IMG/VR virus record: IMGVR_UViG_3300010391_000237
Location: 1-48,681 of that record
Reading direction: 5' to 3' (one strand)
From: a virus
DNA: 48,681 nt
Position 1 is the stretch's first letter. Every line of letters begins with the position of its first letter. Positions 1 to 42,399 of the stretch are shown here, one piece after another. The translations under genes and the position numbers were made by a program. Under the pieces are notes generated by a model. The model was given only the letters and a program-made list of their open reading frames with translations. It had not been told where the DNA came from and did no database searches.

Positions 1-57
1 TCCCTGCTCTGTCCAGATAATCGGGCGTAAACCTAGCCTTAGCCAGTCCCAGAGCCA
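1..57. repeat. 57-bp terminal direct repeat, left copy (circular closure)
   Basis: Bases 1-57 are identical to 48,625-48,681. An open reading frame crosses the join without interruption, so the repeat is best read as an assembly overlap of a circular or circularly permuted molecule. Confidence 0.9.
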
Positions 58-1212
58 TGAATTTCCTGTAAAAAATGATTTTCCATTTCTTCTAACCAAA
101 AAGTTTGTTAATGGTACTGACAAACACCATACCTTTTTTTTACCAATTTCTTTTTTAAAATCTCCCCTTAATTTTGCGAACAGGCTTTCATTCATATTAA
201 GCCTAAAATCCCCCCTATTGCTTTTAGTTAATGTACAGGCTACACCATTTATAGAACAAAGACCCTGTAAGTACCCTAAAAATTTTTCTGTCCCATATAC
301 TATATGGCAATTCACCTTTTTATAAGAGCTACCATCTCCTAATAATGTCTCCTCTATAAATATTCTTGCTTGTCTATATGAACATTTATATAAACAAGCT
401 GGAATAGCGTTTTTTTCAATCTTAAACTTATCTATAAACTCATGGCTGAATATTCTTGGAAGGTGCAAACTATAACTCCTAAGCGGTTGCTTCTTTAATA
501 TTCTACCACAAATTTCTTTTATGTATGGTTGCCGAGAATATTTGTTGTATTTAATTTTTAACTCTTTTAAAATTAATTCAATTCTATCCAAGGTATCTAG
601 TTTTGACTGGTACAAAACAATATCTCCATTCTTGGTTATACTTCCGTCAGTTAATATCCAAGCCATTAATTGAATTTCCAAGTCAGAAATATTAACATCA
701 GAATCTTTATTAATATTGGAAAAACTGGCAAGAGGTATTTGATAGCGACTGTTATTAGGGTCATACTCTTTAACAGTATTATACTTAAACCCACCAACGG
801 TTTTATGCAATATCCTATGGGTATCAGTAATTGCCATACTCACTCTTTGACTTTCAAACACATTTATACCTTCTGATTCCTTTATAATAATTTCATTTAT
901 TCTCTGCCATTCCGATAGCCCATTTGCATTTAATCCTACTACTAAATCGTTTTTTGATACATCAATATATCTTTTCCAACCCTGCATTGTAAATACTTCG
1001 GTATCTTCACTCAAGCAATCGTGATTGCCTATCACATAGATTAAGTTCTTGATTCCGAGCAAGGTTTCTATGCACTGAGGAGTCTCTGGATAGCCGTCTG
1101 TAATATCGCCTAGTACAATCAGAGTGTCGTTATCAGTGAATTTAGCTCTTTCAAGCACTTGTGATAACGCTTTATTCGCCCCGTGTATGTCACCAACACA
1201 AAGTGTTCTCAT
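1..1212 (-). CDS. Lambda-type Ser/Thr protein phosphatase, N-terminal part, containing an intein (gene continues through the circular join)
   Basis: This reading frame is open from ATG 1212-1210 to the left edge and continues in the same frame at the right end (48,624 down to 48,187). Joined, the gene has 550 codons. The first 65 residues carry the phosphatase motifs GDIHG, GDITD and GNHD, which bind two metal ions. An intein follows immediately after GNHD, and the frame then resumes with SWLWDW, typical of this family. Removing the intein leaves about 230 residues, close to the roughly 220 of lambda phosphatase. The start codon overlaps the upstream stop as ATGA, implying coupled translation. 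A NinG-like gene lies just upstream on the same strand, recalling lambda's nin region where the nuclease and phosphatase are neighbours. The substrate in this phage is unknown. Confidence 0.93.
   Translation of the reverse strand, partial: MRTLCVGDIHGANKALSQVLERAKFTDNDTLIVLGDITDGYPETPQCIETLLGIKNLIYVIGNHDCLSEDTEVFTMQGWKRYIDVSKNDLVVGLNANGLSEWQRINEIIIKESEGINVFESQRVSMAITDTHRILHKTVGGFKYNTVKEYDPNNSRYQIPLASFSNINKDSDVNISDLEIQLMAWILTDGSITKNGDIVLYQSKLDTLDRIELILKELKIKYNKYSRQPYIKEICGRILKKQPLRSYSLHLPRIFSHEFIDKFKIEKNAIPACLYKCSYRQARIFIEETLLGDGSSYKKVNCHIVYGTEKFLGYLQGLCSINGVACTLTKSNRGDFRLNMNESLFAKLRGDFKKEIGKKKVWCLSVPLTNFLVRRNGKSFFTGNSWLWDWLRLGLRPIIWTEQG
61..1017 (-). other. Intein with LAGLIDADG endonuclease domain (319 residues)
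   Basis: The insert starts with Cys1 in CLSEDTEV (splicing block A) and has a TxxH motif at residues 64-67 (block B). It ends VWCLSVP...VRRNGKSFFTGN, matching blocks F and G, with Asn319 as the last residue and Ser as the first downstream extein residue. The penultimate residue is Gly rather than the usual His. Two dodecapeptide-like segments, ILTDGSI (about 121-127) and LLGDGS (about 225-230), indicate a LAGLIDADG homing endonuclease between the splicing halves. Excision should ligate GNHD to SWLWDW and restore the phosphatase metal site, so the enzyme should be inactive until splicing. The boundaries are read directly from motifs and host-protein continuity; splicing activity is inferred. 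Confidence 0.92.
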
Positions 1213-3088: not shown

Positions 3089-4891
3089 TTAGTTAAATAT
3101 TTCTTGTGCTATCTCATAGGATGGTATCTGGTATTTGTCATAGAACGAACCTTTATGGAAGAATATTGTACTCTGCCCCCCGATACCGAATTCTCGGTCT
3201 TTTATCTGGGTGATTGTAAACATAGCCTTGTCTTCTGGGAGCATATTATCGTTATACGGCGCACGATGTCCAATGACAACCGTATCTGCGTTGTGACCTA
3301 TCTTACCAGACCCACGCATAGAGTCTATACTCGCTACAACATCCCTGTCTTTACCGCCAGCCTTTCTCATGTGATGTATCAGCATAATCGGCTTAGGTAA
3401 GCCCTTAGATAAGTTTAGTATTTTATTGACCGCATCTGTTTCTGCCTTTACTTCTGAGAAATTATTAGGTTTTGATATGAGGTCAAAGTTGTCTATAAAC
3501 ACTAAGTCTGGGTTTATTTTTTTGATTACTTCTCCTATATTCTCTACCGTTGGGGGAGCTTCCGTGCTAAACCCCATAGGTATTAGGTTGGCAAGTGCCA
3601 GAAGTTCACTCTTTTTCCCCCTATAAAGTTCTTTCTGGTGCGGGCTTATAAGTTTCTTGTCTCTCCATCTCTCCTTTCCTATACAGGCGCACTCTCTGGC
3701 TATTCTAGTTAAGATAGAATCCGTACTCATTTCAAGCGACATATATAATACTCTGTGTCCAAGACGTGCGTTCTTAACCGCCATATCAAAGGCGTATGCA
3801 GTCTTCCCCATCCCTGTATGACCGACTATTATAGCAAAGGTATCTTTTTCTATAGGGGTTATCTTGGAATCGAGATTTTCAGTACCCCATGTGAACATCT
3901 TATCTTCTGAATCTATTTTATCACCAGATGGCTTTTCGGAAATCATCTTATCCACATCCTGTATGTGGGCGAACTTCTTTAGCCAGTCCATAGCTTGCTG
4001 GATGGTCATTCTGCCGTATACTATACAAGCGTCTATGGTTGACCCAGAACCCTCCTTGCCTGAGAACCTGTTTATGTAGTTCTTGGATTCATTTATGGAA
4101 GCCGAGGTTACTACCCCTTTATCGAGTATAAAGTTATTCTTAGTCTCTATACCCAGAGCAGAAAGGACTTCTTTAATCGGGATAGCCTTTACTCTGTCAA
4201 GTATGGGGTCATCCGAAGTTACAGTTTTAATTTCTATTTTTGGCGGAGTATACGGATATGCGGATAACATCTGGCTGGCTGGGATTGGTTCTGAGAGTTT
4301 CTGGAATATACATTTAATCTCGACTGGATTCTTCGGGTCTTTCATGTGAAAGAAATCTGGAAACCTGAGAACTTCGTTTATACTTGTTATAGCTTTGTCT
4401 CCGTGGAAGTAGCCTATAAGCCCGTGGATAATCTGGGAGAATACTGATTTAGGGTCTTGGTGGATGTTCTGCTCATCCCGACCACAGTTTATTGGATAAA
4501 AATTTACCCTCCAGTACAAATGATAGCTTCTCTTGGATTCCACTATGATATTCGGGATGATGGGGGAGGTTTTAATCAGCTTTCGCATTTCCTCTTTGGA
4601 CATATCGTCTATATCCACATATATCCATTCAATAGAGGTTATATTCTCCTCCCTCCTCCCTCCACTACACGGATTAGGAGTGAAGAAAATCCCACCACCC
4701 GCTCTATTAATCTCACACAATAAATCCTTATTCTTTTCGTAATCCGACATCGGGAATATCCGCACCAGTTCTTTACGACCCTTGCCAGAATCATCAAAGC
4801 ATTGGATATACCCATTTTTGAAGATTTCTTGGAACTTTAGCATAAAGTGGGTTGGTTGTTTGATACCAGAATCGACGCTATGCTCCCCCAC
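3089..4891 (-). CDS. AEP primase fused to DnaB-like (RecA-fold) helicase
   Basis: The N-terminal half is an archaeo-eukaryotic-type primase: WIYVDIDD near residue 90 supplies the catalytic Asp pair, SYHLYWRV near 122-129 the conserved His, and EVLRFPDFFHMKDP near 173-186 the third motif. The C-terminal half is a replicative helicase core with Walker A GHTGMGKT near 358-365, Walker B DLVFIDNFDL near 460 and SMRGSGKIGHNADTVVIG near the sensor region. Together they would prime and unwind DNA at the fork. The longest frame starts with GTG at 4891; an ATG at 4843 (MLKFQEIFKNGYIQCF) is an attractive alternative because the 35 bases just before it recur in non-coding DNA at 12,755-12,789. No separate DNA polymerase is visible, so the phage probably uses the host's. 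Confidence 0.93.
   Translation of the reverse strand: MGEHSVDSGIKQPTHFMLKFQEIFKNGYIQCFDDSGKGRKELVRIFPMSDYEKNKDLLCEINRAGGGIFFTPNPCSGGRREENITSIEWIYVDIDDMSKEEMRKLIKTSPIIPNIIVESKRSYHLYWRVNFYPINCGRDEQNIHQDPKSVFSQIIHGLIGYFHGDKAITSINEVLRFPDFFHMKDPKNPVEIKCIFQKLSEPIPASQMLSAYPYTPPKIEIKTVTSDDPILDRVKAIPIKEVLSALGIETKNNFILDKGVVTSASINESKNYINRFSGKEGSGSTIDACIVYGRMTIQQAMDWLKKFAHIQDVDKMISEKPSGDKIDSEDKMFTWGTENLDSKITPIEKDTFAIIVGHTGMGKTAYAFDMAVKNARLGHRVLYMSLEMSTDSILTRIARECACIGKERWRDKKLISPHQKELYRGKKSELLALANLIPMGFSTEAPPTVENIGEVIKKINPDLVFIDNFDLISKPNNFSEVKAETDAVNKILNLSKGLPKPIMLIHHMRKAGGKDRDVVASIDSMRGSGKIGHNADTVVIGHRAPYNDNMLPEDKAMFTITQIKDREFGIGGQSTIFFHKGSFYDKYQIPSYEIAQEIFN
4844..4878 (-). repeat. 35-nt repeat, primase-side copy
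   Basis: The reverse complement is identical over 35 bases to 12,755-12,789 (+). It ends immediately before the internal ATG of the primase gene and contains GGTATCAAA, also present in the upstream operator cluster. Confidence 0.9.
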
Positions 4892-5219: not shown

Positions 5220-5462
5220 ATAATTTGGTTATTAATCCAATTATGAAGATATAAGCCCACAGGTGCGTTCCGCTACACCATTTCTTATATCCTCGTAACT
5301 GAGGGGTAATTTAGGATGGTAAACCATCTGCGTGATACCCCAGAGCTGTCCATTTTCCAATGGAAGAAGTTTAAGGACTTACTTAGGTCGCTTTGTGTGT
5401 TTCTATTTTTCTTTTTGTTCTTCCAAAAGCGGTTGGAAATGGCATATAAAATTAGTTAATTG
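5220..5462 (-). ncRNA. Structured leader or candidate non-coding RNA
   Basis: This 243-base gap has no plausible gene but many perfect helices. GATATAAG (5248-5255) pairs with CTTATATC (5284-5291). GGGGTA (5303-5308) pairs with TACCCC (5336-5341) and encloses GATGG/CCATC (5315-5319, 5324-5328). TCCATT/AATGGA (5349-5364) closes a 4-base loop, and TTCCAA/TTGGAA (5421-5438) forms another hairpin. I checked both strands for a tRNA cloverleaf and could not make one. The 10-mer CCGCTACACC inside it recurs in the leader at 43,222-43,340. Function unknown; leftward transcription would make it the leader of the 81-residue gene. Confidence 0.45.
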
Positions 5463-5729
5463 TTAAAAGTCCAACTTTAAAACCTCCATAGGATAGTGTT
5501 TCCATTTATCCTCATAAACATATACGTCAAGACCCTCTATTTTCCAGCCAGATAACTCCATTAAACGTGCGTAATATGATAATTGTAATTGGTATTTGGA
5601 TAGTTTATTCTTAGGTAACTCAGCGAACTGTCCCAAATATTTATCTTTACCCTCCTCCTCACAATTAATGTTTACCTTGTAATCTCCGACCCTAGCAGTT
5701 TTATCTCCAGTTATAACCAGTCTGTCTAT
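5463..5729 (-). pseudogene. C-terminal catalytic part of the PD-(D/E)XK nuclease, in frame after the stop
   Basis: 88 codons follow the TAA at 5732-5730 in the same frame and end at TAA 5465-5463. They encode IDRLVITGDKTARVGDYKVN and KYQLQLSYYARLMELSGW, the expected end of the nuclease domain (Asp, DxK, QxxxY motifs). There is no good start codon at the beginning, so this part is made only by readthrough or not at all. Confidence 0.75.
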
Positions 5730-6494: not shown

Positions 6495-6563
6495 TTTGGA
6501 TTGGGTTATGTTATAATCATCTCTCGAAACTGATAGTTCGCTATATGGGTTGTACAGTGAACA

Positions 6564-7606: not shown

Positions 7607-7903
7607 TTAATTTAGGTTATATAAATTATGTTTTATTTCTTTCAGCCCTTTTGATAGTGCTAAGTTCATTATTTTGTTTTTAGGCTCTCCCGTTACCATT
7701 GAAGTATGTTCTAATTTTTCTAATGTAACTGGGTTTATAAACTTTATTTCGGTTGCTCCTTTCGCATAAGCCACCGCCTCGGACTCTCTCTGACTGGCAT
7801 AGATACATTTCCCGTTATATTCCACCCTGAACCAAGCTACAGAATAATGCTCACCTATCATTATTATATCAAAGTCTCCGACAGTTTGCAATAGATTTTT
7901 CAT
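7607..7903 (-). CDS. Hypothetical protein
   Basis: A 98-residue protein with alternating strands and helices: VGDFDIIMIGEHYSVAWFRV, a possible Gly-containing turn, then ASQRESEAVAYAKGATEIKF. No family recognised. It overlaps the upstream SVWD-repeat gene by four bases (ATGA type). Confidence 0.7.
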   Translation of the reverse strand: MKNLLQTVGDFDIIMIGEHYSVAWFRVEYNGKCIYASQRESEAVAYAKGATEIKFINPVTLEKLEHTSMVTGEPKNKIMNLALSKGLKEIKHNLYNLN

Positions 7904-8673
7904 TTACATTGTTCAATTAAATCCTTTTTAGTTCCCTCCCACAACACATTGGCTCTTTTACCACCATGCAATCTCAATATATTACCGTCAAAACTTGAGA
8001 CTAGCCCCATATCCCATAACTTTACTGCGTCTGCGAATGGATAACCTTTATGTTTAAACTTTACATATTCCCATTTTTTTAATTTTACCATTGAACCTAT
8101 GTATGCCCCGACAGAAGCCCTGACAGAATCCCAGACAGAAGCCCAGACAGAATCCCTGACAGAATCCCAGACAGAAGCCCTGACAGAATACCAGACAGAA
8201 TCCCAGACAGAAGCCCCGACAGAATCCCAGACAGAAGCCCAGACAGAAGCCCTGACAGAATCCCTGACAGAAACCCAATGTAATAATACCTTTAAGTGCT
8301 TTTTGTTAATTTTAGGCGGTTTTATTTTAAAGGGATGTGTGGGGTTTAGTATCTGTTTTAAGTCCAGCAAAGAATATACCTGTTTTTTCCACTTATTAAA
8401 TTCTGCCCAGCATAATTCTTCGTGCTTAGGTGAAAACCACTCTGGTCTACGTTCCATATCCACTTTGAATATCCACTTATCAGGTTTTAGATAATTTCTA
8501 TTTTCAGGGGTTATTTCTATGCTTGCAAAAGTATTATAAGGCGGGTCTTTATCGTCTTTAAGCTCTTTATCCTTTTTTAAGAATAATTTAATAATATCGG
8601 AATGGGAATCTAACCCAGCTTCCCAGTATACCCTTTTTGATTTGGTTATTAAACATGAAAATGCTTTGCACAT
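7900..8673 (-). CDS. SVW(D/A) tetrapeptide-repeat protein
   Basis: A 257-residue protein. Residues 1-130 are an ordinary mixed domain rich in Trp and Lys (KPDKWIFKVDMERRPEWF). Residues about 133-189 are a run of tetrapeptides SV-[WRGS]-[DAY]. The C-terminal 65 residues form another globular segment (YPFADAVKLWDMGLVSSFDG, RLHGGKRANVLWEG). Similar SVWDSV-type runs occur in phage proteins of unknown function. The repeat probably forms a regular solenoid or helix, and its number is expected to vary by slippage because the DNA is a 12-bp tandem array. It overlaps the next gene and is preceded by a small secreted protein gene. Confidence 0.8.
   Translation of the reverse strand: MCKAFSCLITKSKRVYWEAGLDSHSDIIKLFLKKDKELKDDKDPPYNTFASIEITPENRNYLKPDKWIFKVDMERRPEWFSPKHEELCWAEFNKWKKQVYSLLDLKQILNPTHPFKIKPPKINKKHLKVLLHWVSVRDSVRASVWASVWDSVGASVWDSVWYSVRASVWDSVRDSVWASVWDSVRASVGAYIGSMVKLKKWEYVKFKHKGYPFADAVKLWDMGLVSSFDGNILRLHGGKRANVLWEGTKKDLIEQCK
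8106..8273 (-). repeat. 12-bp coding tandem repeat, 14 units
   Basis: Fourteen consecutive 12-bp units of the form CCCxGACAGAAx (plus strand) encode the SVWD tetrapeptides. Variation is mostly at two positions, and all three plus frames stay open across it, creating spurious ORFs. Confidence 0.92.
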
Positions 8674-9486: not shown

Positions 9487-9533
9487 GTGATTAGCGTAAC
9501 GAATTAATGCCTATTGGCTATCGTTGTAATCAC
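9487..9533 (-). promoter_or_regulatory. Stable hairpin in the leader of the 77-residue gene
   Basis: Nested helices: GTGATTA/TAATCAC, then AACGA/TCGTT, then GCC/GGC closing an AATA loop, all within 47 bases. It lies between the promoter and the start codon. Confidence 0.6.
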
Positions 9534-9545
9534 GCTGACAGAACC

Positions 9546-9574
9546 ATTATAACATACCAGAAAATAAAAAGCAA
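9546..9574 (-). promoter_or_regulatory. Sigma70-like promoter with extended -10
   Basis: Minus strand TTGCTT (9574-9569), 17-bp spacer ending TATGT, TATAAT (9551-9546). The motif TATGTTATAAT recurs at several other sites in the genome. Confidence 0.75.
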
Positions 9575-9597
9575 GTGACAAATATTTTTATTATGTT

Positions 9598-9795
9598 TTA
9601 ATTTATAAATTCATCTTCTATCTCGTATTCAGTTTCTTCTATTAAGTCTAAGCTGACGTTAAATTTGTCGGCTATCTGCTGGTTATCTAATCCTAATGCA
9701 CGTTCATTGACGAAGTGGTAACGTAATGAAACAGTATTAGGTGATACTGGTGCGTTGGTATTTATTAAGGCTTGCGCCTGTTCCTGTAAAATCAT
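9598..9795 (-). CDS. Small helix-turn-helix-like protein
   Basis: A 65-residue protein whose C-terminal half, LGLDNQQIADKFNVSLDLIEE, has the helix-turn-helix spacing seen in small DNA-binding proteins. The first half is a helix (MILQEQAQALINT). It may be a regulator of the leftward block. It sits directly after the HNH endonuclease gene, which itself ends with a similar element. Confidence 0.65.
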   Translation of the reverse strand: MILQEQAQALINTNAPVSPNTVSLRYHFVNERALGLDNQQIADKFNVSLDLIEETEYEIEDEFIN

Positions 9796-9817
9796 GGTGA
9801 TAAAATTAAAAAATAAA

Positions 9818-10315
9818 TTATTTTAAATGCCCCCATCTCTTACCACTTATTATATGTGATATATGGGATAGAGATAAATTAAATTTTTTAGATATTTCCC
9901 TCGCATTAAACCTGACCCCCATTATTTTTATTTCACTAGCCTGTTCTTCTGTTATTTTAGCATTTGGGTGTGATTCCCCTATGGGTCGTGATTTTAACCC
10001 AGTTCTATATGCGTGTTTGCAATTTTCGCTCTGTGTACACCATTCTAAATTAATAGCTCTATTATCAGTTTTGATACCATTCTTATGATTTACAGTTTGT
10101 AATTTATTTGGCAAAAAATATTCCGCCACTAACCTGTGTATACGATAAGATTTAATATTACCTTTATATTGTAATAATATACAAAAATATCCGCATTTAC
10201 AAGGAGATGGTATTCTAATCCTTTCTTTACCAAAGTGTAAACTTTTAAGTCTACCTAAGTTACTTATTTTGTATACCCCCTTATATCCGTTTATATCTTT
10301 CCATTCCTCTTTCAT
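9818..10315 (-). CDS. HNH homing endonuclease (NUMOD4 + HNH_3 type)
   Basis: The N-terminus WKDINGYKGVYKISNLGRLKS is a NUMOD4 DNA-binding motif. The HNH core follows: IHRLVAEYFLPNKLQTVNHKNGIKTDNRAINLEWCTQSEN. The C-terminus KITEEQASEIKIMG...ISKKFNLSLSHISHIISGKRW is a helix-turn-helix that would contact the target site. The 165-residue length is normal. It would cut a specific site in intron- or gene-free alleles and spread by repair. It is free-standing at the head of the leftward block, under the promoter at 10,349-10,377. Confidence 0.92.
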   Translation of the reverse strand: MKEEWKDINGYKGVYKISNLGRLKSLHFGKERIRIPSPCKCGYFCILLQYKGNIKSYRIHRLVAEYFLPNKLQTVNHKNGIKTDNRAINLEWCTQSENCKHAYRTGLKSRPIGESHPNAKITEEQASEIKIMGVRFNAREISKKFNLSLSHISHIISGKRWGHLK

Positions 10316-10348
10316 TTTGGTTTTGGTTAAATAATAATTGACACGAGA

Positions 10349-10377
10349 ATAATACCAAATAATCTAGGGCAAGTCAA
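10349..10377 (-). promoter_or_regulatory. Sigma70-like promoter heading the leftward block
   Basis: Minus strand TTGACT (10377-10372), 17-bp spacer, TATTAT (10354-10349). A TTAACCAAAACCAAA sequence follows and precedes the HNH start. Confidence 0.75.
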
Positions 10378-10446
10378 GAATATTATTTTAAAAACTCTTG
10401 TTATGTTTCATAATTATTATGTAATCGTAATAAAAAATTAACTGAT

Positions 10447-10478
10447 ATTATAACATATTTTAGGATTATTGCAGTACA
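10447..10478. repeat. 32-bp direct repeat, left copy
   Basis: Matches 11,193-11,224 at 30 of 32 positions. On the minus strand it contains TATGTTATAAT. The two copies bracket the 0.7-kb divergence region. Confidence 0.85.
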
Positions 10479-10527
10479 TTTTTTATATATTTTTGAGAGT
10501 TAGCATAGGAATAAGCATGATTTGTGC

Positions 10528-10556
10528 TTGACTTTTAAATGTATAAGGTTTATTGT
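10528..10556 (+). promoter_or_regulatory. Possible rightward promoter
   Basis: TTGACT (10528-10533), 17-bp spacer, TATTGT (10551-10556), about 18 nt upstream of the following ATG. The -10 is weak. Confidence 0.5.
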
Positions 10557-10580
10557 TAAGTGGGAACAGCAACTATTTTT

Positions 10581-10727
10581 ATGGAAACATTTATTTGTGA
10601 ATACAATAAAGAACATCCTATATGGTATTCGCATAGTAGATGTAAATATAATAATTGGAAAGAAGAAATAAAAGAGGATAAATTCTGTGATTGCAGATAC
10701 GAACCGCCACAATTAAATTTAGTGTAA
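10581..10727 (+). CDS. Small Cys-containing protein (48 aa)
   Basis: The frame begins METFICEYNKEHPIWYSHSR and continues with CKYNNWKEEIKEDKFCDCRY. Cys residues at C6, C21 and CDC could bind a metal. It is preceded by a promoter-like sequence and is the only plausible gene in the divergence region. The opposite-strand ORF over the same bases is low-complexity hydrophobic and rejected. Confidence 0.5.
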   Translation: METFICEYNKEHPIWYSHSRCKYNNWKEEIKEDKFCDCRYEPPQLNLV

Positions 10728-11192
10728 CAAATTTGAAGCTGTTATGTATACATATATAGAAGGACTATACTTTTATTTTCCAATTAAACTAAATACTGAG
10801 GGCAGGGCAGACAGGCATAAACTACCAATCCCCCCTCGGAAGCCAATCGTAAGGCGGTAGTGAAAAAGCGACAGGACGTATAATCGGGAAGAGCTTTTAC
10901 TGATATAGACGTTAAATCTGATAACCTTTTGCGTTTATATATTACCCCTACCTGCATTAACGCAGTAGTAGGTGAGAGTTAAGGTTAATTAGCTACGGGA
11001 GAGACATCCCTATAAGAGCAATAGATAAGTGTCTTTGGAATACTCCTCAGGCTTTTAGCTCCCTCGTGTCTCGGGAAGAGCAAAAGGGCTAATATAAAGA
11101 TAAAAAGATAAACTATTTTCGAGCCTTTTGCGAGAAAATAACGAGCGGGAGCGAGTTTGTAAGAAAGAGTTTAGAAAGAGTTAGTAGCCCTG
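10728..11192. ncRNA. Non-coding structured region between direct repeats (candidate RNA or origin)
   Basis: About 465 bases without a credible gene. Helices visible include ACTACC/GGTAGT with inner GCC/GGC near 10,827-10,861; CCTACCTGC/GCAGTAGTAGG near 10,949-10,973; GGGA/TCCC near 10,997-11,012; and a long imperfect hairpin GGCTTTTAGCTCCC against GGGAAGAGCAAAAGGGC near 11,050-11,092. The 11-mer TCGGGAAGAGC occurs twice (10,883 and 11,073 areas). GC content is higher than in the flanks. It lies where leftward and rightward transcription diverge, a usual place for a replication origin or an early regulatory RNA. No known RNA family was recognised. Confidence 0.4.
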
Positions 11193-11224
11193 ATTATAAC
11201 ATATTTTAGAATTATAGCAGTACA
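11193..11224. repeat. 32-bp direct repeat, right copy
   Basis: Differs from 10,447-10,478 at two positions. On the minus strand it contains two -10-like boxes (TGCTATAAT and TGTTATAAT), so it may start leftward transcription through the structured region. Confidence 0.85.
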
Positions 11225-11251
11225 AAATCACCTCTGTCTTGGTTCACCCCC

Positions 11252-11281
11252 TTGACAAGAAAACCATGAGTATGCTATTAT
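11252..11281 (+). promoter_or_regulatory. Sigma70-like rightward promoter
   Basis: Perfect TTGACA (11252-11257), 18-bp spacer ending TATGC (extended -10), TATTAT (11276-11281). It drives the small-gene and replication cluster at 11.3-12.5 kb. Confidence 0.8.
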
Positions 11282-11282
11282 T

Positions 11283-11300
11283 GTAGTATAGGGGTACTAC
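11283..11300. promoter_or_regulatory. Inverted repeat at the transcription start (operator candidate)
   Basis: GTAGTA and TACTAC are separated by six bases directly over the predicted start site of the 11,252 promoter, two bases before the ATG. This is the position expected for a repressor site. Confidence 0.5.
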
Positions 11301-11302
11301 AA

Positions 11303-11473
11303 ATGAACGAAACAAAAACATATTCGGATTATCTCGAAGTTGAGGTACAGAAAGAAAGAATGACACCGCAGGAAGCGAGGTCAATTCTTATACAAAAAGA
11401 ATTACTAAAAGATTCTTGTGTACCCTCTGTATATATAGAGCCAGATAATCACGCCTTCGATCCGATAGATTAA
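11303..11473 (+). CDS. Small acidic protein (56 aa)
   Basis: The frame begins MNETKTYSDYLEVEVQKERM and ends EPDNHAFDPID. It is the first gene after the rightward promoter and starts two bases after the operator-like inverted repeat, so its leader is only about 15 nt. It is acidic and helical in the middle (TPQEARSILIQKELLKDS). Function unknown; an early regulator is plausible from position alone. Confidence 0.65.
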   Translation: MNETKTYSDYLEVEVQKERMTPQEARSILIQKELLKDSCVPSVYIEPDNHAFDPID

Positions 11474-11489
11474 ATCATATTTTACGACT

Positions 11490-11954
11490 ATGGGTAACGA
11501 AAATAAAAACGAAGAAAAAATAGATATGACCCAGAAATTTGACAAAATATGGGGAATGTACCCAAATAAACTAAAGAAGCATTATGCAGGGGTAGAGTGG
11601 TTGCACATGACAGACGAGGAAAGGGATTTGGCAGTAAAGGCAGTACCCAAACATATAGAGAAATGGAGAAAGGATAATACCGAAATGCAGTTTATCCCCC
11701 AGCTTAATAACTGGCTTAACGGTAAGAGGTGGCAAGATGAATTTTCAGAGCAAAAGGCTATGACGCTTGACTACTCAAGGTGGGTTAAGGTGTTGCCAGA
11801 CGGGACAAAGGAATACGACCACAATGGGCTGATAGATTATCTGATTGGACACAGAGAGGATATAGACCCCAGTGTAGCGTTGAACTTACCCTTTATTTCT
11901 CCCTGCGCTGGCGTAGCAAAAAGACATTTAGAAATAATAGGACTTTATGCATAA
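11490..11954 (+). CDS. Replication-protein-like (replisome organiser domain)
   Basis: A 154-residue protein. Residues 16-85 have the pattern 'F..iW..YPnK..K......W..m...er..a...vp.hi..wr....qfiPqlnnWLNGkRWqDE', which matches the conserved C-terminal segment of phage replisome organisers and helicase loaders. Here that segment is at the N-terminus, followed by a roughly 70-residue tail (DYSRWVKVLPDGTKEYDHNG...). A role in recruiting the primase-helicase to the origin is a reasonable inference, since no other loader is visible. The start has no Shine-Dalgarno. Confidence 0.65.
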   Translation: MGNENKNEEKIDMTQKFDKIWGMYPNKLKKHYAGVEWLHMTDEERDLAVKAVPKHIEKWRKDNTEMQFIPQLNNWLNGKRWQDEFSEQKAMTLDYSRWVKVLPDGTKEYDHNGLIDYLIGHREDIDPSVALNLPFISPCAGVAKRHLEIIGLYA

Positions 11955-11957
11955 TTT

Positions 11958-12113
11958 ATGATAAGAGTAATACATGACGGAGCATATACAGATGAAGATG
12001 TGGATAATGCCAGAGAATTTCTAAAATATTGGTATGGTAAAACGCCTACTGATTTAAGAAATTGTGCACTAGAAGCCAAAAGAATTTTAGAGTTAAGAAA
12101 AGGTAAACTTTAA
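11958..12113 (+). CDS. Small hypothetical protein (51 aa)
   Basis: The frame starts MIRVIHDGAYTDEDVDNARE and ends ILELRKGKL. It lies three bases after the previous stop. Charged, helical, no recognised family. Tight spacing supports it. Confidence 0.6.
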   Translation: MIRVIHDGAYTDEDVDNAREFLKYWYGKTPTDLRNCALEAKRILELRKGKL

Positions 12114-12116
12114 TTT

Positions 12117-12194
12117 ATGCCAATTCAAATAAACTTTGATGAGGGGGTAAACGAACTCGATATAAATGAGGCTATTATGTTTTGCACCAAATGA
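12117..12194 (+). CDS. Possible 25-aa peptide
   Basis: MPIQINFDEGVNELDINEAI then MFCTK. Its stop TGA overlaps the next ATG (ATGA), which is the main reason for including it. Confidence 0.4.
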   Translation: MPIQINFDEGVNELDINEAIMFCTK

Positions 12195-12334
12195 AATTTC
12201 AGAATCGCCGTCAGATGCACGACGAATTAGTAAGAGAGGCAAGGCAAGTCAAATTACTAAACAAAGTTGAAAACGGATTTCCTACAATAAGAAACGCAGT
12301 TGAACTACGTTCTATAGAAAAAAATGCAAAATAA
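12191..12334 (+). CDS. Small basic protein (47 aa)
   Basis: The frame starts MKFQNRRQMHDELVREARQV and ends NAVELRSIEKNAK. Highly basic and helical, so nucleic-acid binding is possible. It is coupled at both ends: ATGA overlap upstream, and the next gene starts 11 bases before its stop. Confidence 0.55.
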   Translation: MKFQNRRQMHDELVREARQVKLLNKVENGFPTIRNAVELRSIEKNAK

Positions 12335-12524
12335 ATGTTCAAAATGCGGTAAAAATAGTGGGAGGTACATTATGTGCGCCCCCTGCGAAGCTAGTTGCAC
12401 CACCAAAGTTGCACCCGAAAAATTGCACCCCAAAAAGCAAAGTTGCATTGATATTCCAGATGTATTCATAGCGAATGTGCCTGAAATGCCAAAGCGAAGC
12501 GTCGCTAAACGAAAAACAAAATAG
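12324..12524 (+). CDS. Small zinc-finger protein
   Basis: A 66-residue protein with CSKCGKNSGRYIMCAPC, a CxxC(n)CxxC zinc knuckle, then a basic tail ending KRSVAKRKTK. Probably binds nucleic acid. It is the last gene of the short rightward cluster before the regulatory region at 12.5-12.8 kb. Confidence 0.7.
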   Translation: MQNKCSKCGKNSGRYIMCAPCEASCTTKVAPEKLHPKKQSCIDIPDVFIANVPEMPKRSVAKRKTK

Positions 12525-12842
12525 CTCTTTTAAATCATCACTTTTATACCCAAAACACCCAGCGAAGTAGTTTTCTAAAGTAGTTTTCTAAAACGTCATT
12601 TCGTGTAGGTAAACAAAAGTTCACCAAATGGTGAACATACGTTCACTTGCTAAAAAGTACCCGTTTTAAGCGATTTAAGCCACGCGATATGCGTCAGGCT
12701 ACCTAGATACCCCTTTTGATTATTTTTGTCTTAAATCGCCTAAAAAGGGGCTCTGCGTCGATTCTGGTATCAAACAACCAACCCACTTTTGACCAATTAC
12801 AACATAAATAGACATCGGGAAAGAGAAAAGCCAATTTGTCAA
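12525..12842. promoter_or_regulatory. Non-coding regulatory region with tandem, inverted and interlocked repeats
   Basis: No gene is visible. In order: a 13-bp-period tandem repeat (AAGTAGTTTTCTAAA at 12,565 and 12,578); the perfect inverted repeat GTTCACC-AAAT-GGTGAAC (12,619-12,636) with another GTTCAC at 12,641; GCGATTTAAG (12,670-12,679) complementary to CTTAAATCGC (12,730-12,739); CCCCTTTT (12,710-12,717) complementary to AAAAGGGG (12,743-12,750), the two pairs being interlocked as in a pseudoknot; and the 35-nt primase-leader repeat at 12,755-12,789. It lies between convergent gene sets, so it could hold terminators, an antisense RNA or an origin. Confidence 0.55.
12755..12789 (+). repeat. 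35-nt repeat, non-coding copy
   Basis: Exact match, in inverted orientation, to 4,844-4,878 beside the primase start. Nothing before or after it matches. Confidence 0.9.
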
Positions 12843-13040
12843 TTAAGCGTTATGTTGATTGAGCAGGGATAATATATATTCCCGATGATTTATAGAGACT
12901 TCGTCGAAGGATAGTAATTTTTCCACTAAGCAATTCTGAATTATATCCCTTGTCTCGCTGTAATGTTTAAGCTTTGAATTTGCCCGCCTTGTTTGTCTCT
13001 CAGCTCCCAGAGGAGACGCAATTTGTGTTTTTTCGCTCAT
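12843..13040 (-). CDS. Hypothetical basic protein
   Basis: A 65-residue protein, basic in the middle (AERQTRRANSKLKHYSE) and helical at the C-terminus (EVSINHREYILSLLNQ). Last gene of a leftward islet of very small genes. Unread-through transcription from it would continue across the 12.75-kb copy of the primase-leader repeat and be antisense to primase mRNA. Confidence 0.6.
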   Translation of the reverse strand: MSEKTQIASPLGAERQTRRANSKLKHYSETRDIIQNCLVEKLLSFDEVSINHREYILSLLNQHNA

Positions 13041-13049
13041 AGTATTAAG

Positions 13050-13127
13050 TTAAATAATATTAAATATTTTAAGTGTTATAATGTAAATAAATCCGACCAT
13101 AATAATTACAAGTATTTTATATTTCAT
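13050..13127 (-). CDS. Possible 25-aa membrane peptide
   Basis: The frame MKYKILVIIMVGFIYIITLK plus IFNII is a basic start followed by one hydrophobic segment. Its ATG overlaps the TGA of the upstream gene (ATGA). Confidence 0.45.
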   Translation of the reverse strand: MKYKILVIIMVGFIYIITLKIFNII

Positions 13128-13336
13128 AAATGATATTTTAATTTAATTTTAGCAAGTAGTTTATTTATATCGTTTCTGATAAATGTCAGATTTTCCACTC
13201 TTGATAAATGGAGTAAGCAATTAATGACCTCTCGGACATCATTTATCCGTTGTTCCTTGCGTTTGATAGCGTTTTGGCTTAGATAGTCGGCCCGCACTTC
13301 CAAAGCCTCTATAATGTCTTTAAATTCGTTTTTCAT
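13124..13336 (-). CDS. Hypothetical helical basic protein
   Basis: The frame can start at 13,357, but that ATG lies inside the upstream gene. The ATG at 13,336 (MKNEFKDIIEALEVRADYLS) follows that gene's stop by two bases and is preferred. The product is about 70 residues, helical and basic, ending NKLLAKIKLKYHL. Unknown function. Confidence 0.6.
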   Translation of the reverse strand: MKNEFKDIIEALEVRADYLSQNAIKRKEQRINDVREVINCLLHLSRVENLTFIRNDINKLLAKIKLKYHL

Positions 13337-13338
13337 AT

Positions 13339-13560
13339 TTAATAAACGTTGCCCCAAAAAGTACTATTAGAATTATGTTGATAGTCTGAAATGGCTTGTC
13401 TAGCGTCTTTTAATCTTAAATATCTACCACTAATAACATTTGGATATTTTCTATCCCCAAAGCAAATCTCAATAACAAAATGTTTTTTATTTTCTATTGC
13501 ACGTCTGATTAAATAATTTGCCCCATTGCCATTATTAGATTTTAGTCTATATTCTCCCAT
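13339..13560 (-). CDS. Hypothetical protein
   Basis: A 73-residue basic protein: MGEYRLKSNNGNGANYLIRR, then a beta-strand-like HFVIEICFGDRKYPNVISG and a helix LKDARQAISDYQ. Family unknown. Tightly packed with its neighbours in the leftward islet. Confidence 0.65.
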   Translation of the reverse strand: MGEYRLKSNNGNGANYLIRRAIENKKHFVIEICFGDRKYPNVISGRYLRLKDARQAISDYQHNSNSTFWGNVY

Positions 13561-13564
13561 ATAA

Positions 13565-13645
13565 TTAAAAGGTTAAATTAGTAAAATAAACACTCAAAGC
13601 GAACATAAACGCACAAATTAATAAAGTAAGTATTTTATAAAACAT
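13565..13645 (-). CDS. Possible 26-aa membrane peptide
   Basis: The frame MFYKILTLLICAFMFALSVY plus FTNLTF is nearly all hydrophobic, like the 25-residue peptide at 13,050. Two such peptides in one islet are notable. Confidence 0.45.
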   Translation of the reverse strand: MFYKILTLLICAFMFALSVYFTNLTF

Positions 13646-13662
13646 AGTAAAAGGGTTAATGA

Positions 13663-13917
13663 TTAAAAGTTTTGTATTATTAAATTAATTTTTGCGTCAA
13701 ATTCTGCGAAGTTATCAAAGCAATGGAATTTATAAAGATTTATAAATTGATTATATTCAAGTTCAGAAGGTAAAAATATTGTTATTGCTTTGTGGCTTTC
13801 ATAATAGCCATATATCCGCCACCTATCAAATCCACTATCTTTACCTACACAGTCCATATAATAAATACGGCGTTCATTGTATAAAAATCCTTTTGGCATG
13901 TTGTTTATTGTTATCAT
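13663..13917 (-). CDS. Hypothetical protein
   Basis: An 84-residue protein rich in aromatic residues (GFLYNERRIYYMDCVGK, DRWRIYGYYESHKAITIFLP, FHCFDNFAEFDAKINLIIQ), probably a small beta-alpha fold. No recognised family. Preceded by TTAGGTTATTAAATAAT, and by the 42-residue gene upstream. Confidence 0.65.
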   Translation of the reverse strand: MITINNMPKGFLYNERRIYYMDCVGKDSGFDRWRIYGYYESHKAITIFLPSELEYNQFINLYKFHCFDNFAEFDAKINLIIQNF

Positions 13918-13943
13918 ATAATTGTGGTTAGGTTATTAAATAA

Positions 13944-14072
13944 TTAACGTTTGAATGTAGTTGTACAAGTAGTAGAAAATAAACCTTTTTTAACAATCTT
14001 TCTTGTTAATTGTGGTGTATCTTCTAAAATAACTTTCCGCGCAGATATAAGCCTTAAAATGGTTTTGAACAT
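13944..14072 (-). CDS. Small basic protein (42 aa)
   Basis: The frame begins MFKTILRLISARKVILEDTP and ends TTCTTTFKR. Strongly basic. It has its own promoter at 14,105-14,133 with a roughly 26-nt leader. Confidence 0.5.
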   Translation of the reverse strand: MFKTILRLISARKVILEDTPQLTRKIVKKGLFSTTCTTTFKR

Positions 14073-14104
14073 ATTGATTAAGAGTTAAGTTATAAAGTAA
14101 TTAA

Positions 14105-14133
14105 ATTATATCACAAGTAAATTTTAATTGCAA
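14105..14133 (-). promoter_or_regulatory. Sigma70-like promoter of the leftward islet
   Basis: Minus strand TTGCAA (14133-14128), 17-bp spacer, perfect TATAAT (14110-14105). Confidence 0.75.
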
Positions 14134-14136
14134 GTG

Positions 14137-14307
14137 TTAATAAATATAATTTTTATTGATAGTCATATAACAAAAGCCATTTTCTGATAATTCATCTGAT
14201 TTCCGTTTCGGTACTCTGTATGCGTCTATAAAGCCTCTTTTCAAACTCTTAACGCATAAAACACTAAACATTGTATCTAATTTGTATAATAATTTTATTC
14301 GTATCAT
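14137..14307 (-). CDS. Small basic protein (56 aa)
   Basis: The frame begins MIRIKLLYKLDTMFSVLCVK and ends MTINKNYIY. Basic, no recognised motif. It is the first gene after the promoter at 14,341-14,369 and ends just before the next promoter, which overlaps its stop. Confidence 0.5.
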   Translation of the reverse strand: MIRIKLLYKLDTMFSVLCVKSLKRGFIDAYRVPKRKSDELSENGFCYMTINKNYIY

Positions 14308-14340
14308 ATATAATGTATTAAAAAATAAATGTACATAACC

Positions 14341-14369
14341 ATTATACCAAAGTCTTCAGCGGTTAGCAA
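14341..14369 (-). promoter_or_regulatory. Sigma70-like promoter of the leftward islet
   Basis: Minus strand TTGCTA (14369-14364), 17-bp spacer, perfect TATAAT (14346-14341). Confidence 0.75.
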
Positions 14370-14418
14370 GCAAATCAAGCAAGAAAATTGCATATCATCT
14401 GCACTCTCAACAATTACA

Positions 14419-14447
14419 ATTATAACATAAATCCCGCCAATAAGCAA
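14419..14447 (-). promoter_or_regulatory. Sigma70-like promoter with extended -10, divergent from the late block
   Basis: Minus strand TTGCTT (14447-14442), 17-bp spacer ending TATGT, TATAAT (14424-14419). It nearly duplicates the 9,546 promoter in hexamers and spacing and lies nine bases before the rightward gene at 14,456. Confidence 0.7.
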
Positions 14448-14455
14448 TAGCATAT

Positions 14456-14827
14456 ATGAATAAGCCACAAGGTAAAATCAACATAGATACTGTAATAAAA
14501 GGAATAATGAATAATGAAAAGAAAATAAACATCGCGCCGAAAGCGGGCAGTTTAGCCGTGTCAGATTCGGCCAAAGTAAACGCTGTAAATGAGACCATGA
14601 ATAGACCTGAATATAAGCAAAAAGCAAAGGACTTTATAAAAAGATTAGAAAACGAAAGAGATAGACTATTAAAACATATAGAAGAACATAACATAGTCGG
14701 AGAGTACAAAGACACAGTGGCAAGCCTGGAGAGGATAGCCAAGCTTAAAGAGTTACTAAGCGGTGGAGTTACAGAGAGAACAGAGATAAGCTCAGAGCAA
14801 TTAGATAAGTTCTTAAATAATGCCTGA
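14456..14827 (+). CDS. Hypothetical helical protein at the head of the late block
   Basis: A 123-residue charged protein with a long predicted helix (EYKQKAKDFIKRLENERDRL; DTVASLERIAKLKELLSGG) and an acidic end (SSEQLDKFLNNA). Its position about 1 kb before TerL invites the idea of a small terminase subunit, but no helix-turn-helix is evident, so I leave it unassigned. The start is shared with the upstream divergent promoter region. Confidence 0.75.
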   Translation: MNKPQGKINIDTVIKGIMNNEKKINIAPKAGSLAVSDSAKVNAVNETMNRPEYKQKAKDFIKRLENERDRLLKHIEEHNIVGEYKDTVASLERIAKLKELLSGGVTERTEISSEQLDKFLNNA

Positions 14828-15204: not shown

Positions 15205-15535
15205 ACATCTGTCCACCGCCCACTTAAAGCGTAGCTTCGCTATAGGTTTTATTCCTTTTTAGTATTTAGTATTTAAATATATATTAATAGTTATTGAGTT
15301 ATATATATTGGTATTACATTTATGATTCTGGTATAGAGCATGACTTTTGTGGAGAGTGAGGGGTACAATGTAATGAGAGATGTCTGAGAATAGATTATTA
15401 AATTAAGTTATTGACAAAAACTAATATTATGTTATCTACTAATACATTAGATTTTCAAAAGAGGTGGGGGTATATTTTTTTACTGGGCAGAAAATTTTTA
15501 AAAAAATCTGAGTAATATAATTAACCAAAAACACT
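15205..15535 (+). promoter_or_regulatory. AT-rich non-coding stretch with a possible late promoter
   Basis: There is no gene. It opens with a small hairpin (AGCG-TAGCTT-CGCT near 15,228-15,241) followed by T-rich DNA, which may be a weak terminator. TTGACA at 15,411-15,416 with 16 bp to TATCTA (15,433-15,438) is a possible promoter for the capsid and packaging genes. Confidence 0.4.
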
Positions 15536-28909: not shown

Positions 28910-29893
28910 ATGGTCTTCGATAAAGATTTCTTTAAACAACACCAATCCAAACTTTTGTTTCTCTTAAACAACAGATTTACGAAACGCTGGTTTCGGTATG
29001 TTTTAAGGATAAGAAAAGAGGATTTACCCCTAAAGACTAAAATCCTTGAGTTAGGTAATAACTTCTTCACCCACTCGGCTAAAAGAAAAGGCGATAAGGT
29101 GGAGTTAAAGACGAGCTTCCGTTCCAATGAGAAATATGCACGCAGATTATGGTTCGCTTTTGAGCCTTTATGGTGGGTGTTACACGCTTGGGATATGGTT
29201 ACGAAGCCTTGGCCTGCGTTGAATCTATCTTTCGACACACTTCCGACCAAGTATTCGACTCCAGGGAGCACGGTGAGCGGTTATTGCCAGAGGACAGGAC
29301 AAGATGCTACATATTCCACACTTAGGGCTGGGGCAGGAACGGTGAGTGGTGAAAATGGGATAATCACCTATAATAACTCATCAGCGACATCTAACCAATT
29401 CGAAAGAATTAGTAGGAGTATATTTCTATTCGACACCTCTGCCCTGACATCTTCCGCTACTGTGACTGCCGCCGTTGTCGGTTTATGGGGAAAGGGGCAA
29501 TTCACAGGTCTTGGTGCTTTCGAGATAGATGTTGTCGCATCCACACCAGCGTCGGACACGGTGTTGGCAAATGCGGATTTTTCGCAATTGGGTGATACAC
29601 CATTCTCATCAATCGCATCAGGAAGCCTGAGTGTGAACGACACCGCCTACAATTTATTCACATTGGATGCCAACGGAAGGGCTAATGTTAGCAAGACTGC
29701 CAACAGCAAATTCGGCATAAGGAACAATTGGGACACGGACAATAATTTTGCAGGAACTTGGGCGAATGGAAATTTAAGCGGAACTTCATTCCAAGATAGT
29801 TCATACACAGGAACCACCCGTGACCCCAAGATAGACATCACCTATACACTGCCAGCAGTCGCCACAGCAGGCTTCCTATTTAATATGATATGA
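28910..29893 (+). CDS. Tail-associated protein with a basic N-terminal domain and a C-terminal adhesin-like beta-sandwich
   Basis: Residues 1-95 are basic and Trp-rich (FFKQHQSKLLFLLNNRFTKR, FRYVLRIRKEDLPLKTKILE, WFAFEPLWWVLHAWDM), a domain that recurs in tail gene clusters and may dock to the tail. Residues about 120-320 form a beta-sandwich (FLFDTSALTSSATVTAAVVG; FEIDVVASTPASDTVLANAD; RDPKIDITYTLPA) like DNRLRE/CBM-type adhesin domains. Probably receptor binding. Confidence 0.75.
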   Translation: MVFDKDFFKQHQSKLLFLLNNRFTKRWFRYVLRIRKEDLPLKTKILELGNNFFTHSAKRKGDKVELKTSFRSNEKYARRLWFAFEPLWWVLHAWDMVTKPWPALNLSFDTLPTKYSTPGSTVSGYCQRTGQDATYSTLRAGAGTVSGENGIITYNNSSATSNQFERISRSIFLFDTSALTSSATVTAAVVGLWGKGQFTGLGAFEIDVVASTPASDTVLANADFSQLGDTPFSSIASGSLSVNDTAYNLFTLDANGRANVSKTANSKFGIRNNWDTDNNFAGTWANGNLSGTSFQDSSYTGTTRDPKIDITYTLPAVATAGFLFNMI

Positions 29894-29927: not shown

Positions 29928-30137
29928 ATGGAAGAAATAGTGCCAAATTCGTTAGTACAGCTCGGAGAATATGGAACAGTAGGGATAATTCTAGCTCTTA
30001 TAGGGCTGGTAGGGCTTATCGGCTGGTTATTCTATAGGTTCGCAGCTAACCATGTAGAACACTCTAATATAGCCTTCAATCAGAATACTGAGGCACTTAC
30101 AAAACTCTGCACTATTATAGAACTTAAAATTAAATAA
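29928..30137 (+). CDS. Single-pass membrane protein, holin-like (BhlA/UviB style)
   Basis: A 69-residue protein: a short N-terminus, the hydrophobic segment TVGIILALIGLVGLIGWLFY (residues 17-36), then a charged helix (NHVEHSNIAFNQNTEALTKL). This layout resembles BhlA/UviB-like holins. It sits among tail genes, far from the C39-like protein, so a structural membrane role is also possible. Its stop overlaps the next start (TAATG). Confidence 0.55.
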   Translation: MEEIVPNSLVQLGEYGTVGIILALIGLVGLIGWLFYRFAANHVEHSNIAFNQNTEALTKLCTIIELKIK

Positions 30138-31321
30138 TGTCAACTACAAAAGCTCAATTAGGGATTAGGCTTACGGAAGTGTTAAAGAGGAGTGAAACCC
30201 GTAATCTTACCCCGACACAAAGAGACAGGGCATTGAATGATGCTTTATTAACTGATGTCAACCACTATAGGAATTGGAATCCTCAGTATAAGAACTCAAC
30301 TACACAGGCTGTGGATGGGGTTATTAACATACCCTATAATTTCAGGAGGTCAGACTATTTAACTTACGGCTCAGACGAGGAAGATGTACTTTATAAAGAG
30401 TACGATTTGGTAGACCAGACCAAATTCTTTGCTGATAAGGCTGACCAGACTGCCGTAATAACAGATTTAAACGGAAGACAGGTTATCAGGATTCACGATG
30501 ACGAAGACCAAGGGGTAGATGTATCTAACAAGACCGCAACCGCAGACTTAGGCTTGAGAGATGCCGCAGCCAGAGAAAGGCTTTTCCAGACATTCACAGC
30601 GGTAAGTTCAATACAGGGTGTAACACACAGGCTGAAAAAGGTCGGCTCTCCGACTGGCACTGTAACGGTTGCACTTTATGCAACCTTAGCAGGAGTACCT
30701 ACAGGTTCAGCTCTGGACTCAAAAACAATAAACATAGATGAATTTCAGGATTCGGATTACTATAATATGTTCTTCGACCTAGATTATACTCTGACAGCGG
30801 CTACGGTATACGCAACCGTATTAAGCGGGAGTTATACTGTAAGCGCAACTAATTACATAGCCTGTGAGTATTCCGCTGCCTCAGTATACACAGGCGGCAC
30901 ACACGGTACTTATGACGGCGCAACTTACGCTGCTGGGACAGGAGATTTGTACTTCATTATCTGGAAAGATAAATTCAGGTGGCAGTACGAAGCGGAACTT
31001 ACAGAGATGACAGAAGCCAGTGATGAAACTGGGCTTTCAAGAGACTTCGATGAACCTATCTGTATGCTCGCAGCCGCAAGACTCTTAGAAAGACAGTCTA
31101 ACGGGCGTGACCAAGGCAGGACTTCAAGGGCTTTCCAGTTGAGATACGGCAACGGGGGCAACGTAGCCACACCTACACCTGACTCAGCTTTCGGGCTTTT
31201 AAACAATATCTGGAACGAAACCCGTGTCCAGACCAAACATCCATTACGCAGGATGCAGAACATTTATGAGAAACGCAAATTATCCAGAAGATACCCAGAT
31301 ACTAATGCCACACAGCCTTAA
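30137..31321 (+). CDS. Head-tail adaptor-like protein with inserted beta domain
   Basis: A 394-residue protein. The ends look like the helical adaptor of short-tailed phages (IRLTEVLKRSETRNLTPTQR...DALLTDVNHYRNWNP; FDEPICMLAAARLLERQSNG). Residues about 155-275 are a beta-sandwich insert (FTAVSSIQGVTHRLKKVGSP; TVTVALYATLAGVPTGSALD), as found in host-facing decorations. Neighbours (nozzle, fibre) support an adaptor or tubular role. The assignment is by layout rather than motif. Confidence 0.6.
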   Translation: MSTTKAQLGIRLTEVLKRSETRNLTPTQRDRALNDALLTDVNHYRNWNPQYKNSTTQAVDGVINIPYNFRRSDYLTYGSDEEDVLYKEYDLVDQTKFFADKADQTAVITDLNGRQVIRIHDDEDQGVDVSNKTATADLGLRDAAARERLFQTFTAVSSIQGVTHRLKKVGSPTGTVTVALYATLAGVPTGSALDSKTINIDEFQDSDYYNMFFDLDYTLTAATVYATVLSGSYTVSATNYIACEYSAASVYTGGTHGTYDGATYAAGTGDLYFIIWKDKFRWQYEAELTEMTEASDETGLSRDFDEPICMLAAARLLERQSNGRDQGRTSRAFQLRYGNGGNVATPTPDSAFGLLNNIWNETRVQTKHPLRRMQNIYEKRKLSRRYPDTNATQP

Positions 31322-31425
31322 TAGCGTGTCAATGAAGCCCCTTTTTAGGCTATTACAGCCACGAAAACAATTTTAACGTATGGGTATAGCCTACGCAATA
31401 TAGACCCCCCTTAAATCGATTATAA

Positions 31426-42231: not shown

Positions 42232-42399
42232 ATGAAATTCCGAAGTACAAAACTATCCATAGGCGGTGCTGAGTTATTTATTAAAGACGGTGGGGACTTA
42301 GATAAAGTACGCCGTATACTAACTTCTCTTACTCAGGCAAAAGAGCCAGAAGATACTCATAACCTGAAAAAATTTAAAGATTTATTTAACCTAAAATAA
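42232..42399 (+). CDS. Small hypothetical protein (55 aa)
   Basis: The frame begins MKFRSTKLSIGGAELFIKDG and ends NLKKFKDLFNLK. Mixed strand-helix protein, one base before the holin-like gene. Unknown function. Confidence 0.6.
   Translation: MKFRSTKLSIGGAELFIKDGGDLDKVRRILTSLTQAKEPEDTHNLKKFKDLFNLK

Follow-up and report, generated by a model that had tools for sequence, protein, structure and literature searches.

A probable divergent early control region, with two copies of a predicted leftward promoter, in an uncultivated phage genome

What occupies the largest gene-poor interval of a phage genome, at the point where two oppositely oriented gene blocks part? The question is raised by IMG/VR record IMGVR_UViG_3300010391_000237, whose 48,681 bases form the stretch analyzed here (hereafter the window), and in which a first-pass annotation had singled out a structured non-coding segment of about 460 nt bracketed by direct repeats, suggesting that it may be a replication origin, an abundant early RNA or the remains of an inserted element. 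The first 57 bases of the record are identical to its last 57, so the sequence probably closes into a circular molecule of 48,624 bp; the record's end class reads linear. Encoded proteins include a terminase (phrog_38 match), a DnaB-like helicase whose N-terminal part is primase-like and an M23 peptidase, along with many others of unknown function.

ORFs run leftward up to 10315 and rightward from 11303, and the two blocks converge near 42.6 kb, which bears out the earlier statement that transcription parts here. The leftward block is opened by a gene for a NUMOD4/HNH_3 homing-type endonuclease (9818–10315, minus strand). The rightward block begins with a 56-aa gene of unknown function (11303–11473, plus strand), followed by a gene for a 154-aa protein (11490–11954, plus strand) that is similar to phage replication-initiation and primosomal proteins in their C-terminal part (family matches to phrog_9474, 2.1e-11; phrog_270, 2.8e-11; phrog_9327, 4.6e-11). 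Counting ATG ORFs of at least 45 aa, the interval between the blocks is the largest gene-poor region but not the only sizeable one, as had been claimed, since gaps of 318 nt (12525–12842), 327 nt (15209–15535) and 270 nt (5460–5729) are also present; apparent gaps within 1–1208 reflect a gene running off the window end. At that end of the window, a metallophosphoesterase gene (1–1212, minus strand) is split at its GNHD motif by a stretch that matches LAGLIDADG_3 (E 9e-5), ends in ...FFTGN before S and is apparently an intein with a homing endonuclease; a second metallophosphoesterase gene lies at 41468–42217 (plus strand). Shine-Dalgarno-like sequences were found in 5 of 60 genes picked from the ORF list, pointing to an unusual host, which tempers any assignment of promoters here.

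The region is indeed bounded by a direct repeat, whose copies (10447–10478 and 11193–11224) are identical at 30 of 32 positions. About 3e-9 such pairs would be expected by chance in a 951-nt stretch of the same composition, and the longest exact direct repeat within 10447–11224 measures 17 nt, against 13 nt in the best of 300 dinucleotide shuffles. The boxes that had been noticed inside the repeat proved to be the right lead: both copies end, on the minus strand, in TATGTTATAAT, which matches the extended -10 promoter consensus. The consensus of extended -10 sigma-70 promoters is TRTGNTATAAT. The window holds six exact TATGTTATAAT sites, at 6507(+), 9546(-), 10447(-), 11193(-), 14419(-) and 14892(+), where 0.07 are expected, and none of 100 shuffles reached six (maximum, 1); allowing up to one mismatch, there are 12 sites in the window against 2.97 expected. 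One further TRTGNTATAAT site lies at 14105(-). Although the window is 88.6% coding by a hand-picked gene list, all six exact sites fall between genes (chance 2e-6), as do all seven TRTGNTATAAT sites (chance 3e-7). A TG one base before a TATAAT-like hexamer and intergenic enrichment, the two features by which we would recognize extended -10 sigma-70 promoters, are thus both found here.

Conservation in the repeat ends exactly with the final base of the -10 hexamer and extends about 26 bases upstream of it, as expected of a promoter core that has been duplicated. Our preferred reading of the repeat is a predicted leftward promoter present twice. In the proximal copy, which adjoins the left block, the extended -10 occupies 10457–10447 (minus strand) with the conserved stretch upstream of it; the distal copy, also on the minus strand, contains another extended -10, TGCTATAAT, at 11219–11211. 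In favor of promoters, TTGCTT was read by eye 17 bases upstream of the hexamer at two of the six sites (9546 and 14419). Against them count the poor -35 region of the repeat and the 6507(+) site, which points against its neighboring genes. These genes are leftward, and the extended -10 at 6507–6517 (plus strand) might give an antisense RNA. Two further features were recorded in this part of the genome: 6570–6594 is complementary to 29005–29029 at 88%, and 12-bp tandem repeats (GACAGAAKCCCW) occupy 8106–8288 within an ORF at 7900–8673 (minus strand).

Sigma-70-type matches as a class are not enriched in 9500–12600 (17 found, 12.9 ± 3.7 expected), so the promoter argument rests on the enrichment of the extended -10 motif together with position. 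The best such match across 9500–12600 is a rightward early promoter-like site, TTGACA-18-TATTAT with TG, at 11252–11281 (plus strand), which agrees with the consensus at 11 of 12 positions. A third leftward promoter-like site, TTGACT-17-TATTAT with TG (10377–10349, minus strand), recognized by consensus match only, lies 33 nt before the start of the HNH gene. A weak rightward site, TTGACT-17-TATTGT (10528–10556, plus strand), shares TTGACTTTTAAA with 2780–2769(-) and 40809–40798(-), a 12-mer that shows no enrichment when up to two mismatches are allowed (16 found, 13.68 expected). The predicted rightward start is spanned by a perfect palindrome, TTGTAGTA-N6-TACTACAA, with 8-bp arms and a 6-base center (11281–11302, plus strand), the sole copy in the window, which ends at the ATG at 11303 and could be an operator or an mRNA hairpin. 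The stretch 11281–11400, which lies beyond the region that had been annotated, folds at z -4.76, with 0 of 200 shuffles as good.

The distal repeat copy and the rightward site thus form a back-to-back pair, while the proximal copy and the site at 10377–10349 face the leftward genes. Given this arrangement, the region is probably a divergent early control region of the phage in which the leftward promoter has been duplicated; such phage early control hubs are of a known and ordinary type. A leftward sigma-70-type extended -10 promoter would be present in two near-identical copies, presumably regulated in common. The distal one (11193–11224) would form a back-to-back pair with the replication-type block's promoter (11252–11281), on whose start the palindrome may act as an operator, and the proximal one (10447–10478), together with the third site, would serve the left block headed by the HNH endonuclease gene. 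Leftward transcription from the distal copy would carry the segment between the copies as a long leader, and rightward transcription may also enter it from the weak site at 10528, in which case opposing transcription may interfere there. Promoters alone explain neither the duplication nor the length of the segment, which also counts against this reading.

Is the segment itself coding, or something more than a leader or spacer? Between the copies lies a possible 48-aa ORF (10581–10727, plus strand; third-position G+C, 22%), which has no family match and for which tblastn gave five phage records, none better than E 2. The 465 nt that follow (10728–11192) hold no convincing ORF on either strand, in agreement with the earlier claim of a non-coding segment of about 460 nt, and we annotate them as an untranslated leader or spacer that is not significantly structured. 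Across 10728–11302 there is no sizeable ORF, each frame carrying 7 to 17 stops. Coding on the minus strand was considered, frame 0 being fairly open, but its 57-aa ORF (10784–10957) was judged un-protein-like, on judgment only. The segment had also been said to differ in composition from its flanks. The region is AT-rich only to about 10780, and 10800–11199 has 39%–45% G+C in a genome of 39%, so the composition step lies inside the segment rather than at the repeats.

A functional non-coding RNA of an undescribed family, perhaps abundant early in infection, could be made from a segment that lacks a convincing ORF and has promoter-like sites on both sides. Since these sites flank and face the segment, its transcription as such is likely, and the purine-rich plus strand (GC skew 0.135, AT skew 0.121), which in this respect resembles the coding strand of genes elsewhere in the genome, mildly favors the rightward direction. 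The fold of the segment does not set it apart. For 10780–11220, the plus strand gave z -1.06 (14 of 100 shuffles as good) and the minus strand z +0.37 (68 of 100), where 24 folds of 413 nt elsewhere in the genome had a mean z of -0.60 (sd 1.62); other boundaries and sub-segments had equally ordinary energies, and a minus-strand RNA from 11187 did not reach significance (z -1.70, 16 of 200). In overlapping 120-nt windows over 10401–11440, 5 of 24 on the plus strand (starting at 10481, 10561, 11081, 11281 and 11321) and 3 of 24 on the minus strand (11081, 11281 and 11321) fell below z -2, against genome-wide baselines of 14% and 13%, respectively, from 69 windows. Two of these lie over the rightward gene start and two over the 48-aa ORF or its leader; the only one mostly inside the 465-nt segment is 11081–11200 (plus z -2.12, minus z -2.52), which is also the only one of the 10 windows starting within 10721–11081 to fall so low. 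Local hairpins exist, as the first-pass annotation had noted, yet the folding energy is no better than that of dinucleotide shuffles.

The Infernal-type search proposed for such an RNA, run with the Rfam 15 covariance models, gave no match at gathering score anywhere in the window. Among permissive matches (E up to 10) the best, and a point in favor of an RNA, was to RAGATH-32 at 10868–10944, but its 16.9 bits (E 0.39) fall far below the gathering score of 41.8. The repeated 11-mer that had been remarked upon, TCGGGAAGAGC, does occur twice (10884–10894 and 11071–11081, plus strand), which could likewise suit an RNA; it is marginal, as 6 of 300 shuffles of 10780–11192 contain an exact direct repeat of at least 11 nt. 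A duplicated domain inside the segment was considered and rejected: the gapped alignment of its two halves gave p 0.026 when compared with shuffles, yet scores as high came from 32 of 313 control windows of the genome. GGA, counted with a CsrA sponge in mind, an idea then dropped, occurs seven times on the plus strand and four times on the minus strand. No terminator is predicted within the segment. Ordinary folding, an empty Rfam search and a marginal repeat lead us not to call the segment a structured RNA, and the abundant structured early RNA proposed before loses its footing with them; the sequence details of the first-pass annotation otherwise hold up for the most part. The segment may still give an RNA that is unstructured or pseudoknotted; overall, we regard a functional RNA from the segment as rather unlikely.

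Comparison with other genomes adds a further point against such an RNA, in that no homologue of the segment appeared among phage or plasmid records by blastn (best E 5 and 0.3, respectively) or in IMG/VR by exact patterns taken from the segment core, the two TCGGGAAGAGC copies or the 32-bp repeat; the repeat had no homologue in genome contigs either. The pattern TCGGGAAGAGC...CCTTTTGCG matched two IMG/VR records (L008 and L009), which were dropped as chance; both matches sit at the start of a long ORF (455 and 456 aa). Searches for relatives found none by the replication protein or the helicase, two by a portal-sized protein and four by terminase alignment, two of them already found, with none in genome contigs. 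None of these relatives (L002, L003/L007, L005 and L006) reaches the early region, and of two whole relative records searched, one gave an 18-base match (E 0.016) and the other none. In relative L002, positions 933–1043 (111 nt) have an Rfam tRNA match of 48 bits and look by eye like an initiator-like tRNA with a CAT anticodon and an anticodon loop enlarged by about 39 nt; ARAGORN did not call a tRNA at this place.

How the two copies arose is a separate question, to which the answer may be duplication or the entry of a 746-bp piece into the promoter. Under the second proposal, an element consisting of the small ORF and the non-coding part would have entered at the leftward promoter and thereby duplicated it, an account of origin that is compatible with the promoter reading. 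The 30/32 repeats at both ends of the 746-bp segment fit an inserted element, as had been suggested earlier; without the segment, a single leftward promoter would be paired back to back with the rightward promoter, and the 48-aa ORF is AT-rich, as is the HNH gene. The repeat ends, however, coincide with the promoter core, so that selection would explain them without a target duplication, for which 32 bp is long. The composition step at about 10780 falls inside the supposed element rather than at its ends, the neighboring proteins scanned gave no integrase or transposase match, and no empty site was seen, the relatives found not extending to the region. We hold insertion to be an unlikely source of the copies.

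A phage replication origin in this region, also raised by the first-pass annotation, would suit the adjoining replication-initiation-like gene, the stretch at 10290–10500, one of the genome's most AT-rich, and the minimum of the cumulative GC skew at 10313. Specific signs of an origin are nevertheless missing: no iterons appear among the repeats listed for 10000–11800, and none of the 16 loose DnaA-like matches of the window falls in 10316–11302. Of what marks a theta-type origin, iterons or DnaA boxes beside an AT-rich stretch, the AT-rich stretch alone is present, and 13.0–14.1 kb is as AT-rich as 10290–10500. The skew minimum at 10313 and the maximum at 42307 both mark changes of gene direction, and a reversed cassette (12843–14468) has a weakly negative skew (-0.065) that follows its own genes rather than the arm in which it lies, which argues that skew tracks gene direction. 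An origin here is possible, though we consider it quite improbable.

The divergent control region remains our preferred reading, and its promoter motif recurs, with one mismatch, at a better candidate for a non-coding RNA than the segment between the repeat copies. A perfect 35-nt inverted repeat (12755–12789 and 4844–4878; about 5e-12 expected) places 35 nt directly before the helicase ATG at 4843–4841, which is probably the true start, the longer ORF opening with GTG 48 nt upstream. The motif copy, TATGTTGTAAT, lies at 12806–12796 (minus strand), and the transcription start predicted from it, at about 12790–12789, would fall where the 35 nt begin. The candidate RNA, predicted at 12790–12610 (minus strand), would thus be perfectly antisense over its first 35 nt to the helicase leader. 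Its sequence folds at z -3.28 (1 of 200 shuffles as good) and, by eye, has at its end a hairpin and, after it, a T-rich run (the terminator scan ended at 12600); no similar DNA was found in the phage collection, and Rfam matched at chance level only. A rival role for the inverted repeat is at the DNA level, such as inversion of the intervening 7.9 kb. Because the promoter carries a mismatch, was noticed after the repeat and belongs to a class with 2.97 sites expected by chance, we treat this RNA as a lead rather than a result. If real, its 35/35 match would be of wider interest, as trans-encoded small RNAs are described (PMC12197685) as pairing by shorter, imperfect stretches. Within the candidate RNA, AGCCCCTTTTTAGGC (12739–12753, minus strand) recurs at 31336–31350 (plus strand), in the gap after the gene at 30137–31321.

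A broader scheme, which we put forward as a doubtful speculation, is that a regulon of near-identical extended -10 promoters fires gene blocks and untranslated RNAs alike. A long leftward RNA would start from 11193 and run across the 465-nt segment, and a separate small RNA from the one-mismatch copy at 12796, whose first 35 nt would block helicase translation, thereby coupling early transcription and replication by RNA. For annotation, the value of the analysis is that it locates a probable early control region in an uncultivated phage and offers, for a host in which most phage genes have no Shine-Dalgarno sequence, a promoter motif open to testing. The analysis further illustrates that a striking-looking non-coding stretch can prove statistically ordinary.

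Opposing transcription beside replication genes, as predicted here, recalls the pR/pO-oop arrangement of lambda (PMC3985674); this is an analogy only, as neither an oop-like RNA nor an origin was identified in our region. With extended -10 sigma-70 promoters, the likeness is an exact consensus at six intergenic sites, and the difference a poor -35 region in the repeat. Compared with divergent early regions of the lambda pL/pR type, the leftward promoter is here duplicated 746 bp apart, no repressor gene was identified and the promoters are predicted ones; what the two share is leftward and rightward early blocks that part between back-to-back promoter-like sites, a palindrome at the rightward start and a replication-type gene in the rightward block.
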